From: Bacteroidota bacterium
Lineage (GTDB): Bacteria > Bacteroidota > Bacteroidia > NS11-12g > UBA955
Reading direction: 5' to 3'
Length of the DNA: 64,000 nt
Assembly (NCBI GenBank): GCA_018333525.1
Contig: JAGXTF010000101.1
Coordinates: 1-64,000 of the forward strand
A program made the position numbers and the translations under genes. Positions within the stretch are counted from its first letter, which is position 1. Every line of letters starts with the position of its first letter. Shown piece by piece: positions 1,503 through 5,910 of this stretch. The notes beneath the pieces were generated by a model, which made no database searches, was not told where the DNA came from, and saw only the letters and a list, made by a program, of their open reading frames with translations.

Positions 1503-1925
1503 TTGAGTATTTTTAAATTATATAAAAAAACTATCTTAACTATTTTGGGGTTATTAATATTTTTTGGTATTCTATATTTGATTGTGATCATTGGAGATTG
1601 TAGGAGTGAAGATAAATTTAATATTGAAGCTAAACAGAATGGACTTTATTGTGCACGGGTAAATTACGCAAGAAAGGGAATCGGACTAGGTACTAATATC
1701 TTTTGCGAAATACACAGAAATGGGAGGATCGATTCGGTCCCTTTCATTACATCTTGTGATAATAAACAAAAGTTGAATTTAGATCATGACTATAAAATAT
1801 TATTTGCATTTTATACTCCAAATTTGGAATACATAATGCCAATATTTACTAAAAAACAATATAGGAAACTTCAACTTTTATTTCCAGATAGTGCAGCTAT
1901 AATGGATACTACTTATCTACAATAA
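1503..1925 (+). CDS. Candidate immunity protein, single membrane anchor
   Basis: A 140-residue protein starting with TTG five bases after the RHS tip. Residues ~8-30 form one strong membrane helix (ILTILGLLIFFGILYLIVII). The remaining ~110 residues are soluble and include a Cys-containing stretch. I do not recognise the family. Position, size and spacing directly behind an RHS tip are typical of the cognate immunity gene. A membrane-anchored inhibitor would fit a membrane-acting tip, but that pairing is inference. A 184-bp AT-rich gap follows in which I see no gene. Confidence 0.55.
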   Translation: MSIFKLYKKTILTILGLLIFFGILYLIVIIGDCRSEDKFNIEAKQNGLYCARVNYARKGIGLGTNIFCEIHRNGRIDSVPFITSCDNKQKLNLDHDYKILFAFYTPNLEYIMPIFTKKQYRKLQLLFPDSAAIMDTTYLQ

Positions 1926-2108
1926 TGGTATTTTGTAGATTATGGAATTTTACAAATAACTCATTTCTAAGATAATTTGATAAAACTATACCATTTCCAA
2001 AATCATTGATTATTTACTCGGAATGGCATTCCTTCGAATCTATTGTAGCAATAATTAAGCAATTACTGCATAAAATATCACAAAAAAACACAATAAAATA
2101 CGCTTTTA

Positions 2109-2490
2109 CATGTTTTTCTCTGTTTCATCGCGCATAGGCATGTGCCAGCCACGCAGAACTCTCCTACAGCGCACCTTGGCCATGGATAGCACAGGGAATT
2201 TGGATACTGTTGCAAATGATTCTAATTTTACAGTTTATATTCCGAATGTAAAGTATTTGAAACGCACGCTTACATATAAACAATATGAATTGAGTAATCA
2301 CTTAGGCAACGTACTTACTACGGTTTTAGACAGAAAAACTGCGGTGGTAGACACGAACAGCACCGGAGATACCGTTATGTATTATATGGCAGATGTATAT
2401 ACCGCACAAACCTATTATGCATTTGGTAGCAGCATGCCCGGGCTTAGTTACAAGCACGATTCTGCTGATGGTTATAGGTTTGGGTTTAAT
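2109..2490 (+). repeat. Direct repeat copy B (RHS-core segment)
   Basis: Second copy of the 1-381 segment, here with an intact reading frame. The frame upstream is closed by TAA at 2071-2073 and there are no YD/RHS repeats before it. The cassette is therefore an orphan tail and not the end of a complete RHS gene at this place. Confidence 0.9.
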
Positions 2491-3498
2491 CGAAGCGAAA
2501 ATGTAATTGAATTGAATAATACAAATTCCTATGAATTTAGATTTTATAATCCCGCTTTACTAAGATTTTATGCTGTTGACCTTTATAATAAGAAATATCC
2601 TCAGAATAGTCCATATATAATAAATGAAAATAATCCTCTTCTATTTGTAGAGATTGATGGAAGAGATAACATTATTTATTTAATAATTCTACCTTCAGCC
2701 TTAAAGCAAAACGGTGGAGATTGGACCGTCACTGAGTTAAATGCTCTTGTAAGTTTATCAAATAAAACGTTTAAGGGCTTAGGGTTAAATACAAAAGTTG
2801 GTGTATATAATACGCTAATTAATGAAAGTACATTCAGGACATCCAGAATGGATCCAACTGATGGTGTTGTGGTATTTGGCTCAAGAGATGAAGTAATAAA
2901 ATTTATGCGTTCAAATGTCAACGCTGCATTCTCTAAACAGCTAGAAGGTGGATGGGAAGGAGGAGCAGACAATCCTGAAGAGTCAGAAAACTACACTAAA
3001 TATAATCCCAACTTTGGAATAGCAATAGATGCAAATGCATTAAATGATGTTGCTGAGATTCATTTCGGCGGGGAAATAAAAGGATCAAATAAAATTACTG
3101 CTGGAGCTTTAATAATCGCACATGGTGCTGGTCATAACTCTGGATTAGGGCATCCAGGTGAATTAACTGGAGACCCATCAACAGTAAATTCTTCTAAACT
3201 CATGTTAGATGGTCAAAAGGTTAGTGACTACTTGCAGGAATATCCGGAGTTATATCCGTCCCTATTGTCATTTGCAGATAATGCCAATGGAAGGAATAAT
3301 GATTATATTGAGAGTATGAAACTTAGGTTTGGAGATGCAACTGCAAGTAGAAATTATGAAAAAACTACAGGGGATCAAATAATTTGTGGCCCTTATTCTA
3401 CAAATTTGGTACCTTGGATCAGTTCTCCAGCGGATTATTTGGAAAATAAAAGTTGTAATTGGCAAAATTGGTTCAATGAAAGAAATAAAAACAAATGA
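2110..3498 (+). CDS. Orphan RHS-core tail with metzincin-like tip (copy B)
   Basis: 462 residues starting at ATG 2110. Residues 1-~175 are RHS core (NHLGNVL, YYAFGSSMPG, YRFGFN, closing IDG), and ~175-462 form the tip. The tip carries HGAGHNSGLGH at residues 338-348, followed by a Met at 365 (KLML). This is the zinc-ligand and Met-turn layout HExxHxxGxxH of metzincin peptidases, but the catalytic Glu is Gly339. Bacteroidota RHS tips with an intact HExxHxxGxxH are known, so this tip may be inactive, or may use the fold for zinc binding only. The stop overlaps the next start by 4 bp (ATGA), which implies translational coupling to its partner. There is no secretion signal in the cassette. Confidence 0.75.
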   Translation: MFFSVSSRIGMCQPRRTLLQRTLAMDSTGNLDTVANDSNFTVYIPNVKYLKRTLTYKQYELSNHLGNVLTTVLDRKTAVVDTNSTGDTVMYYMADVYTAQTYYAFGSSMPGLSYKHDSADGYRFGFNRSENVIELNNTNSYEFRFYNPALLRFYAVDLYNKKYPQNSPYIINENNPLLFVEIDGRDNIIYLIILPSALKQNGGDWTVTELNALVSLSNKTFKGLGLNTKVGVYNTLINESTFRTSRMDPTDGVVVFGSRDEVIKFMRSNVNAAFSKQLEGGWEGGADNPEESENYTKYNPNFGIAIDANALNDVAEIHFGGEIKGSNKITAGALIIAHGAGHNSGLGHPGELTGDPSTVNSSKLMLDGQKVSDYLQEYPELYPSLLSFADNANGRNNDYIESMKLRFGDATASRNYEKTTGDQIICGPYSTNLVPWISSPADYLENKSCNWQNWFNERNKNK

Positions 3499-4037
3499 AA
3501 AAAACCAGTTCTATCTTTGTTTTAATATTTTGCTTTATATCTTGTATCTATAAAGTTAGCGAAAAGGAGATATTGCATCCGGCAACTAATTCTAGTAAAT
3601 TAATAATTCAACATGATAGCATCAAGTATAGGTACAATATAATTAATTCAGACACTATACGTGGATATTTTATTCTTAATAAGAGTTTTTCACGTAAATT
3701 AAAGCGTAATTGTGATTCTATCAATAAAAAAGATATTATTGATCTATTTAGGTCTAATTATTATTTAACACAGAGCCAAATGAGTATTGGTATGGAAAAA
3801 TATATTGAATTACAAAGTTTTAGAATTGTCTATGTTGATTCAAATATAACCTTAGGGTTCTTTGTAGATCAAAATTGCAAATTCTATGGCGAATTTCACT
3901 TGCAAGAAAAGACATTTATAACCCCTATTGTTTCTTATATTGATTCAAATTGGGATAGGCTAAGATATCGGTTTAGTGAAATCGATTTCTTTGGTGATTA
4001 TGAATTCAATCACCAAACAACACTTGAAACCCCATGA
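3495..4037 (+). CDS. Candidate immunity lipoprotein
   Basis: 180 residues. The N-terminus (MKKTSSIFVLIFCFISC) is a lipoprotein signal with lipobox FISC, so the mature protein should be membrane-anchored in the periplasm or outer membrane. No family is recognised in the remainder. It overlaps the metzincin-like RHS tip by 4 bp, the expected arrangement for a cognate immunity gene, and overlaps the next small tip by another 4 bp. A periplasmic location would suit a toxin acting on envelope proteins (inference). Confidence 0.6.
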   Translation: MKKTSSIFVLIFCFISCIYKVSEKEILHPATNSSKLIIQHDSIKYRYNIINSDTIRGYFILNKSFSRKLKRNCDSINKKDIIDLFRSNYYLTQSQMSIGMEKYIELQSFRIVYVDSNITLGFFVDQNCKFYGEFHLQEKTFITPIVSYIDSNWDRLRYRFSEIDFFGDYEFNHQTTLETP

Positions 4038-4270
4038 TTGATAAATTTAAGGCAGAAGGTGGAATTATTCAGAAGAATCCATTAGGAGCCACTCAAGAAA
4101 TCAATATTACATTTGAAAATGGGGTAATAAAATTAGATTTTCGGATTGAGACCCACCCTTTGCCAGTTAAATACGGTGGCGACGGAATCACTCCTCAAAG
4201 ACACATGAATGTTGATTTATATCCAAATAAGAAAACTCTCCCCAACGGCGGACATAAAATTTTAGAATAA
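4034..4270 (+). CDS. Core-less RHS toxin tip fragment
   Basis: 78 residues with no RHS core and no signal. The end of the protein (PQRHMNVD, then LPNGGHKILE) looks to me like the conserved end of a polymorphic-toxin tip family, but I cannot name the family. It starts inside the previous gene's stop (ATGA overlap) and is followed 10 bp later by a small acidic protein in the immunity position. It is best read as a third, displaced tip that has lost its carrier. Confidence 0.5.
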   Translation: MIDKFKAEGGIIQKNPLGATQEINITFENGVIKLDFRIETHPLPVKYGGDGITPQRHMNVDLYPNKKTLPNGGHKILE

Positions 4271-4280
4271 ACTATAAGAA

Positions 4281-4637
4281 GTGGAAGATAATCTTTTAAT
4301 AGACATTTTGAATGTAATTCCCGCAAAAATGGAATGTTATATTCAAGCACCAAGTCTTAACAATAAAATTATTCTTGATATGTTTAAAAAAACAGAGTAT
4401 GATTATTATCAATTATTAATTATTGATGAAACAAATAAGAATACAATAGTAAATCAGGAAAGAGAAACTTCTTTTGGTATTTATGTACAACGAATTGAAA
4501 TAAAGAAGAATGGAGCTTTATTGTTTGATGGTTTTGATGGGGTAGAATTTGGAATTGTATCTAAGAACCTCGTTATTCCTGAATGGTTTAAAGAAAAATA
4601 TGTCCCTGAAACATGCATGATATCTCCTAATTGGTAA
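4281..4637 (+). CDS. Candidate immunity protein for the third tip
   Basis: 118 residues starting with GTG, soluble and without a signal peptide or membrane segment, ending in IPEWFKEKYVPETCM. The small size, cytoplasmic character and position 10 bp behind the core-less tip are those of a cytoplasmic immunity protein. I do not recognise a named Imm family with confidence. Confidence 0.5.
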   Translation: MEDNLLIDILNVIPAKMECYIQAPSLNNKIILDMFKKTEYDYYQLLIIDETNKNTIVNQERETSFGIYVQRIEIKKNGALLFDGFDGVEFGIVSKNLVIPEWFKEKYVPETCMISPNW

Positions 4638-4713
4638 GGTGCAGCATCTTATGCAATTCAGGTATTTTGGCATCTAATGCCAGGAATATTTACATTTGAA
4701 TTAGCCCCAATAA

Positions 4714-5229
4714 ATGATAAAATGCTCAAATAAATCTAACTTTTGTAAAATAGATTGTATCAAAAAAGCGTGTGGCAGCTACTCCCAAGTTCATATTCAA
4801 TTAGTATTTGCGGTTCAAGGGAGACAAAATTCAATTCACTCTAAATGGGAAAAAGACTTGCACAAGTATATTACCGGCATTATTCAAAAAAAAGGGCATA
4901 AATCCATAGCAATAAATGGCATGTCAGATCATATACATATATTTTTTGGATATAAATTAACCGATACTATTCCAGATTTGGTAAGGGAAATAAAAAAAGC
5001 TTCAACTGTCTGGATAAAAGAAAACAGATTGGTTATTGGAGATTTTCACTGGCAAGAGGGTTATGGTGCATTTTCTTATAGCAATTGGGACGTTCAAAAA
5101 ATCACGAACTATATATTAAATCAAAAAGAGCACCATAAAAATATTGGTTTCAGAGAAGAATATTTAAACCTTCTTTCTGAATTTAATATCGATTTTGATA
5201 GCAGATTTTTGTTTGATTTTCATGAGTAA
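4714..5229 (+). CDS. Y1/HUH transposase of the IS200-like / RAYT group
   Basis: 171 residues of the Y1_Tnp fold, which cuts and joins single-stranded DNA at hairpins. The HUH motif is His73-Ile-His75 in SDHIHIFFG, and the likely nucleophile is Tyr133 in NYILNQKEHH. The conserved block WQEGYGAFSYS is present. The first ~20 residues are Cys/Lys-rich and unlike the family, which normally begins near SYSQVHIQ, so the start may be altered or misplaced. No accessory TnpB gene is seen. The next feature, 5 bp after the stop, is an array of palindromic repeats, which points to a REP-associated tyrosine transposase rather than an ordinary insertion sequence. Confidence 0.85.
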   Translation: MIKCSNKSNFCKIDCIKKACGSYSQVHIQLVFAVQGRQNSIHSKWEKDLHKYITGIIQKKGHKSIAINGMSDHIHIFFGYKLTDTIPDLVREIKKASTVWIKENRLVIGDFHWQEGYGAFSYSNWDVQKITNYILNQKEHHKNIGFREEYLNLLSEFNIDFDSRFLFDFHE

Positions 5230-5234
5230 TTGTT

Positions 5235-5750
5235 TGTACGACCCCTACAGGGTCGGTTTGTTTATTAACCGGCTCTGCGAGCATTGTACGACCCCTACTG
5301 GGTCGACTACTTACTAACCGGCTCTGCGAGCATTGTACGACCCCTACTGGGTCGACTACTTACTAACCGGCTCTGCGAGCATTGTACGACTCCTACTGGG
5401 TCGGCTACTTACTAACCGGCTCTGCGAGCGCTGTACGACCCGTGCAGTGTTGGCCACTTACTAACCGGCTCTGCGCATATATGACCCCCTAGGTCGGCCA
5501 CTTCATAAGCCGCTCTGTGAGCATTGTACGACCACGATAGGGTCGGCTACTTACTCACCAGCTCTGCGAGCAATGTACGACCACTACTGGATCGGCCACT
5601 TATTAACCAGTTCTTTGAGCATTGAACGACTCCTTCAGGGTCGGGCTACTTATTAACTGGCTCTGCGAACATTGTACGACCCCTACAGTGCGGGCTACTT
5701 ACTAACCGGCTCTGTGAGCATTGTACAGCCGCTACTGGGTCGAGGGAATT
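5235..5750. repeat. Tandem array of ~49-bp palindromic REP-like units (10 full, 1 partial)
   Basis: Units start at 5235, 5285, 5334, 5383, 5432, ~5477, 5525, 5574, 5623, 5673 and 5722; nearly all are 49-50 bp. Each holds two hairpins: CGACCC-ctact-GGGTCG (6-bp stem, 5-nt loop) and GCTC-tgc-GAGC (4-bp stem, 3-nt loop), joined by a conserved acttactaaccg. Units next to the transposase are almost identical and those further away are degraded. One more half-unit (caacccatacggggtcg) lies at 5777-5793. Base composition is clearly more GC-rich than the flanks. This is not a CRISPR, because there are no unique spacers. Confidence 0.9.
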
Positions 5751-5880
5751 AAGAGTGTTTTACTTTTAGCGTTTCACAACCCATACGGGGTCGAACACCC
5801 ATATCACCTCACCGAATTAAACCAACTAAAAACAAAGATCTATCGCCAATTAGCGATGCTGATTTAAGTCAAATTCACAT

Positions 5881-5910
5881 ACAACCACGTAGGTAGGTTG
5901 TTTTGTGTTT
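5881..5910 (+). terminator. Possible terminator after the repeat array
   Basis: ACAACC (5881-5886) pairs with GGTTGT (5896-5901) across a 9-nt loop and is followed by ttttgtgttt. The stem is short and the T-run is interrupted, so strength is doubtful. The stretch 5751-5957 otherwise holds a degenerate repeat unit and a small inverted repeat (atcgc...gcgat near 5840), and no gene. Confidence 0.4.

Follow-up and report, generated by a model that had tools for sequence, protein, structure and literature searches.

A subclass 1.2 Y1 transposase gene beside a tandem hairpin array in Bacteroidota: a candidate REPtron-like locus with its own palindrome family

The Y1 enzymes of IS608 and ISDra2, as well as Escherichia coli TnpA-REP, act on single-stranded DNA, in which they bind hairpins and cut close to them. 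How transposases became domesticated REP-handling enzymes is an open question, and one that the case of TnpA-Y1 subclass 1.2 addresses. In the classification of this enzyme family, the entry for REPs under subclass 1.2 is "no" (Quentin et al., 2018, Table 1; PMC6006769), and the automatic REP search in that study required the hairpin to have a GT[AG]G foot on its 5' side. Tandem REP and BIME clusters as such are already known (PMC8266576). The literature that we searched, which took in few subscription journals, holds no description of REPs for subclass 1.2, and we regard novelty as provisional; the repeat strings themselves returned one unrelated paper, on transcription start sites of Clostridioides difficile. 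An IS200-near group that is listed without REPs, seemingly with specific, structured and countable repeats phylum-wide, makes a direct test case, with the likely substrate readable from the gene flanks.

The locus described here lies in a 64,000-nucleotide stretch of a Bacteroidota contig, analyzed as a whole and referred to as the window; the coordinates of its features are collected in Table 1. The encoded protein matches Pfam Y1_Tnp (E 1.6e-22) and carries the motifs DHIH (HUH), WQ, and YILNQKEHH, which form the subclass 1.2 signature and by which we assign it to that subclass. It passed the NCBIfam IS200 model NF033573 (57.1 bits, cut-off 55) and had no match at E 0.001 to the NCBIfam RAYT model NF047646 (cut-off 80 bits), against which its paralogues and relatives score 29–38 bits. 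The class-2 tyrosine motif YxxxNP is absent, its place being taken by YILNQ, a class-1 YxxxQ motif. By both sequence profile and predicted fold (mean pLDDT 82.8), the nearest solved structures are TnpA of ISDra2 and IS608, with the E. coli RAYT structure also matched at a lower rank; the fold resembles the ISDra2 and IS608 structures bound to DNA hairpins. An IS200-type HUH/Y1 enzyme is thus supported, and the label "RAYT-like" given in a preliminary description of this DNA holds in that wider sense, not in the strict one. The window genome contains five genes of the subclass 1.2 type. Near-identical copies of the window gene and its ends were found at no other site in the genome, the other four proteins being only 37–49% identical to the window protein, which indicates no ongoing amplification of the gene itself.

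Table 1. Features of the transposase gene and the adjoining array, in window coordinates.
Feature	Position	Strand	Remarks
tnpA, HUH/Y1 single-strand transposase, class 1, subclass 1.2 signature	4714–5229	+	171 aa, intact
Tandem array, 49-bp unit, 10 full copies and a partial 11th	5234–5742	+	TRF and unit-by-unit reading
Hairpin 1 of unit 1 (CGACCC-CTACA-GGGTCG)	5239–5255		Identical to dispersed genome copies at C43
Hairpin 1 of units 2 and 3	5289–5305 and 5338–5354 (span 5289–5354)		Two identical units
Hairpin 2 of unit 1 (GCTC-TGC-GAGC)	5272–5282		4-bp stem; weak, recurs in most units
Degenerate palindrome CAACCCATACGGGGTCG just past array	5777–5793		Sequence reading; repeat-model score just 2.4 bits
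Short inverted repeat ACAACC-9-GGTTGT, 3' of array	5881–5901		Sequence reading; membership uncertain

The preliminary description had the gene followed after 5 bp by 11 units of about 49 bp, each with two hairpins. Pfam and TRF confirm the gene and the tandem hairpin array behind it, with a gap of 4 bp. TRF found one long array in the window (period 49, 10.4 copies, 78% matches), so that the eleventh unit is a partial one. The array greatly exceeds chance: within the window, 8 matches to a 24-base core of the unit stand against 0 expected, and 3 matches to the pattern CGACCCN2-8GGGTCG against 0.02. Both hairpins are present, but they are not equal. Hairpin 1 (CGACCC/GGGTCG) pairs completely, with G-T allowed, in five of 11 units (1–4 and 9) and is broken or shortened elsewhere, units 5 and 6 being strongly decayed. 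Hairpin 2 (GCTC/GAGC) has a stem of the kind that also occurs in 9% of shuffled spacers. It gains support from 49-bp doublets at three further loci of the genome (contigs C43, C88, and C90), because each has in the same place a perfect palindrome of 7-3-7 form, AATGCTGTTCCAGCATT or its complement; judged from these sequences, hairpin 2 in the window may be what is left of a stronger structure. A CRISPR array was ruled out, as there are no unique spacers and the entire 49-bp unit repeats.

The window genome contains 23 exact CGACCC palindromes, compared to 1 when the pattern is reversed. R1, the covariance model described below, matches at 24 other places, several of them around a paralogue on contig C60. 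When the complete array served as a DNA similarity query against 57 genomes, the window genome alone matched, since both stems and spacers change rapidly; relatives had to be searched with patterns and covariance models. On two contigs of one genome (G000; C31:97451–97835 and C117:2743–3127), the same palindrome cluster occurs with identical spacing, representing either a repeated segment or an assembly duplicate.

We surveyed 112 loci, 32 from the window genome and the genomes of 18 relatives and 80 from named genomes, mostly Bacteroidota; 105 have the HUH and Y...Q..HH motifs. For perfect stems of at least 7 bp, palindrome density within 150 bp of the gene is about ten times that beyond 2 kb. 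A 7-3-7 or 7-4-7 palindrome lies within 300 bp of 35 of 71 subclass 1.2 genes vs. 28 of 204 control ORFs (p 6e-9), which leaves 36 of the 71 control-comparable genes with no perfect palindrome in that range. A tail motif, ATGTTTRTAGAAA, follows the hairpin on its 3' side at offset +1 in 108 of 316 palindromes near the gene, in contrast to 17 of 350 far from it and 1.7% in shuffles; the 80 loci behind the 108 of 316 are also those in which the motif was first read, and only the held-out and class-2 comparisons are independent of it. Neighboring palindromes near the gene are mostly spaced 46–58 bp apart, with a peak at 52, and REPIN-like inverted pairs also occur. A phylum-wide search with one fixed palindrome gave sparse results because the stem varies by lineage; it still placed palindromes beside tnpA in several genomes (G067, G072, G179, and G193). 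A plasmid search returned two records. At two loci (L089 and L118), two adjacent copies of the Y1 gene share one contig.

TRF returned 63 rows in 210 kb near the genes vs. 17 in 531 kb far from them, with overlapping rows counted apart. At 16 of 112 loci, the window among them, the gene has an array with a period of 44–60 bp no more than 300 bp away (mean period 50.8, SD 2.4). Other examples are a 51-bp unit repeated 5.8 times in a Bacteroidales genome (L116) and a 49-bp unit repeated 11.9 times in Desulfonema magnum (L077). In the latter, a non-Bacteroidota genome, several large arrays of approximately 50-bp units surround one Y1 gene (1638–4980), which suggests transfer between phyla.

Two window ORFs upstream of the transposase gene (148–1497 and 2110–3498) have no Pfam match; they have in common an Rhs-core-like stretch (YELSNHLGNVLTT...DGYRFGFN), after which their C-terminal parts diverge, and each is followed by small ORFs, like tandem polymorphic C-terminal cassettes. 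A YD-repeat (Rhs-like) coding sequence also lies about 300 bp 3' of a subclass 1.2-like Y1 gene on a Persicobacter plasmid (L138). Among the other loci, YD-repeat or Rhs-like motifs occur in L076 only, and the presence of Rhs-like sequence beside Y1 genes is probably coincidence.

The R1 model describes the hairpin together with its ATGTTTRTAGAAA tail. For its construction, 26 sequences, with 3-nt loops only, were taken from the 80-locus set; its pair covariation is partly by construction, because palindromes were selected. In 35 held-out subclass 1.2 sources R1 gave 122 matches at E up to 1, none of them from the window under default filters. Around class-2 RAYT genes of the same genome set (30 loci with RAYT-model matches), it gave one weak match. 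Many palindromic repeats of Bacteroidota that are unnamed in the libraries searched are accounted for by this model. Eight of the RAYT-model genes (L143, L144, L146, L148, L152, L153, L166, and L167) are flanked by perfect palindromes of their own sequence (TGTAGTC/GACTACA, GTTGGTG/CACCAAC, and GTTCGTG/CACGAAC), a second set of REPtron-like loci.

The palindromes also track with the enzyme, being more numerous in genomes that have it. Across 57 genomes, R1 matches occur in 14 of 18 with the enzyme compared to eight of 39 without it (Fisher 7e-5, shared ancestry uncorrected); the remaining 31 enzyme-free genomes have no match, but neither do four of those with the enzyme. The exact CGACCC palindrome tracks in the same way, and in three genera (g8, g13, and g16) its count is zero in enzyme-free members and non-zero in members with the enzyme. 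One of the eight exceptions (G040), scored as enzyme-free, has the enzyme at a looser threshold; another genome (G036) has a weak, fragment-like match, and two other exceptions are less than 80% complete. Protein similarity correlates with stem similarity (Mantel rho 0.58), which common descent alone could cause. In a genome that is 84% complete and in which the subclass 1.2 gene was not detected (G014), another palindrome family, CGACCCGG-nnnn-CCGGGTCG, is found on contigs C51, C64, C83, and C205, often as pairs 52–54 bp apart. The preliminary description had asked whether the unit has copies elsewhere in the genome and whether copy number follows the enzyme across relatives, and its case would have failed had there been neither further copies nor any near related transposases; palindromes of the unit's type were found in both settings, and they track with the enzyme in the counts above.

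Taken together, the Bacteroidota survey contradicts the listing of subclass 1.2 as having no REPs, and it suggests an overlooked partnership between these enzymes and mobile hairpin repeats across the phylum. With palindromes beside the gene and further copies in the genome, the window genome and its relatives have the REPtron arrangement. Our preferred reading, to which we give a probability of roughly 0.65, is that the gene and the array form a REPtron-like locus, in which a class-1 (IS200-type, subclass 1.2) HUH/Y1 enzyme is paired with its own family of REP-like palindromes. It draws on what is directly observed: the type of enzyme, the association, specificity and dispersal of the palindromes, the size of the unit, and differences in copy number at orthologous loci. 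Counting against it are the missing tail in the window array, the genes with no perfect palindrome nearby, the enzyme-bearing genomes with no R1 match, and the gene copies interrupted by stop codons. The window array shares with the repeat family the gene type, the position, the period or spacing, and the hairpin stem. Its units have neither a GTAG/GTGG foot 5' of the hairpin nor the ATGTTTRTAGAAA tail, and R1 matches the hairpin part alone (12–14.5 bits), for which reason we call the array, on sequence grounds, a divergent and partly decayed member of the family rather than a proven current substrate. It may nonetheless be, or have been, a substrate.

Alternatively, the palindromes could be terminal sequences, left and right, of a conventional autonomous IS200-type insertion sequence, with the arrays and dispersed copies as relics of such ends. 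Besides the score of the window protein with the IS200 model, the orientation of the motif-bearing palindromes agrees with this, as 14 of 22 upstream and 23 of 34 downstream point in toward the gene (p 0.03), and at a Bernardetia plasmid locus inverted motif-bearing hairpins stand on either side of tnpA. However, the low identity among the five genes of the window genome indicates that the gene is not being copied, and the palindromes outnumber the genes. The gene also stays put at syntenic loci while the number of repeats varies: at three such loci of one genus, L033 has a single flanking composite unit, L031 and L049 approximately three each. The gene has a dN/dS of about 0.1 there, with a stop codon in two of the three copies (stop codons interrupt 17 of the 112 genes, these two included). 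Tandem arrays of approximately 51 bp are, moreover, not a known feature of IS200 ends, and we consider this explanation unlikely.

The array could also be a passive minisatellite, in which hairpins stall replication and slippage adds units, with the enzyme irrelevant. In L077 (clearly) and L116 (weakly), adjacent units resemble each other more closely than distant ones do. This is not clear in the window array, where units 2 and 3 are nevertheless identical and many hairpins have decayed; these observations are as expected for a minisatellite, and slippage may be the route by which units are added. The denial of any role for the enzyme is harder to reconcile with arrays of such a period recurring beside subclass 1.2 genes and hardly elsewhere in the same loci, or with a hairpin and tail specific to subclass 1.2 vs. 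class-2 genes, and it appears improbable to us. A purely RNA-level role for the array, as a terminator or stabilizer structure in the 3' end of the tnpA mRNA and unrelated to DNA movement, is very improbable: the array does start directly past the stop codon, and a T-rich stretch after hairpin 1 of unit 1 scores as terminator-like, but terminator-like sites are at chance level (2 found, 1.3 expected), folding is just moderately above shuffles (single-stranded DNA z -2.6), the approximately 51-bp arrays of relatives are about as frequent upstream of the gene as downstream, or more so, and no Rfam family matched in the window or in six other loci.

For the REPtron-like locus, we infer from these comparisons that subclass 1.2 enzymes bind, cleave, and move the repeats, by a route that might run as follows. 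In single-stranded DNA, such as the lagging strand in replication, the short hairpin of about 7 bp would fold; the enzyme would bind it, cut nearby via its tyrosine, and join or move a short segment. Palindromes could thereby spread to intergenic sites as non-autonomous repeats, while the enzyme gene would remain at low copy under purifying selection. Beside the gene, arrays of approximately 51-bp units would expand by local duplication, either through slippage at hairpins or through the enzyme's own cut-and-join activity. No empty repeat sites were observed. A further-reaching proposal, which we put at somewhat under even odds, is that subclass 1.2 has its own REP system apart from class-2 RAYTs, marked by a 3' ATGTTTRTAGAAA and not by a 5' GTAG, and that its enzyme builds the arrays with their fixed unit of approximately 51 bp. 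If true, this would make the system an extant stage between IS200 transposons and domesticated REPtrons.

Among described repeats, the CGTC repeats and the TIRs of TIRYT genes (Di Nocera et al., 2013; PMC3733652) are likewise short palindromic families, and CGTC repeats have been reported in Bacteroidetes. The stems of CGTC repeats are 8–9 bp long, the repeats are marked by a CGTC tag, and no transposase is associated with them; with stems and tag both different we rejected them as the identity of the array; the TIRs flank other Y1 groups. IS608 and ISDra2 of the IS200/IS605 family share the enzyme fold and catalytic motifs, whereas here there are no amplified gene copies with fixed ends, and palindromes occur in arrays and dispersed without the gene. 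The closest match for the enzyme is TnpA-Y1 subclass 1.2 as described (PMC6006769), with which it agrees in signature (DHIH, WQ, and Y...Q..HH), length, low copy number, and occurrence in Bacteroidetes; the difference is that a repeat family is associated with it here, whose repeats have no GT[AG]G foot. Class-2 REPtrons (PMC3116915, PMC8266576) are the closest match for the arrangement, in that a low-copy Y1 gene is flanked by dispersed short palindromes, inverted pairs, and tandem clusters. Their REPs, BIMEs, and REPINs are GTAG-tagged, while the enzyme here is of class 1 (YxxxQ) and was missed by the RAYT model; and where they have a GTAG foot 5' of the hairpin, subclass 1.2 repeats have a conserved single-stranded tail, ATGTTTRTAGAAA, 3' of it. 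The array unit here is also distinctive at approximately 51 bp, and the class-2 RAYTs of the same genomes have different palindromes.
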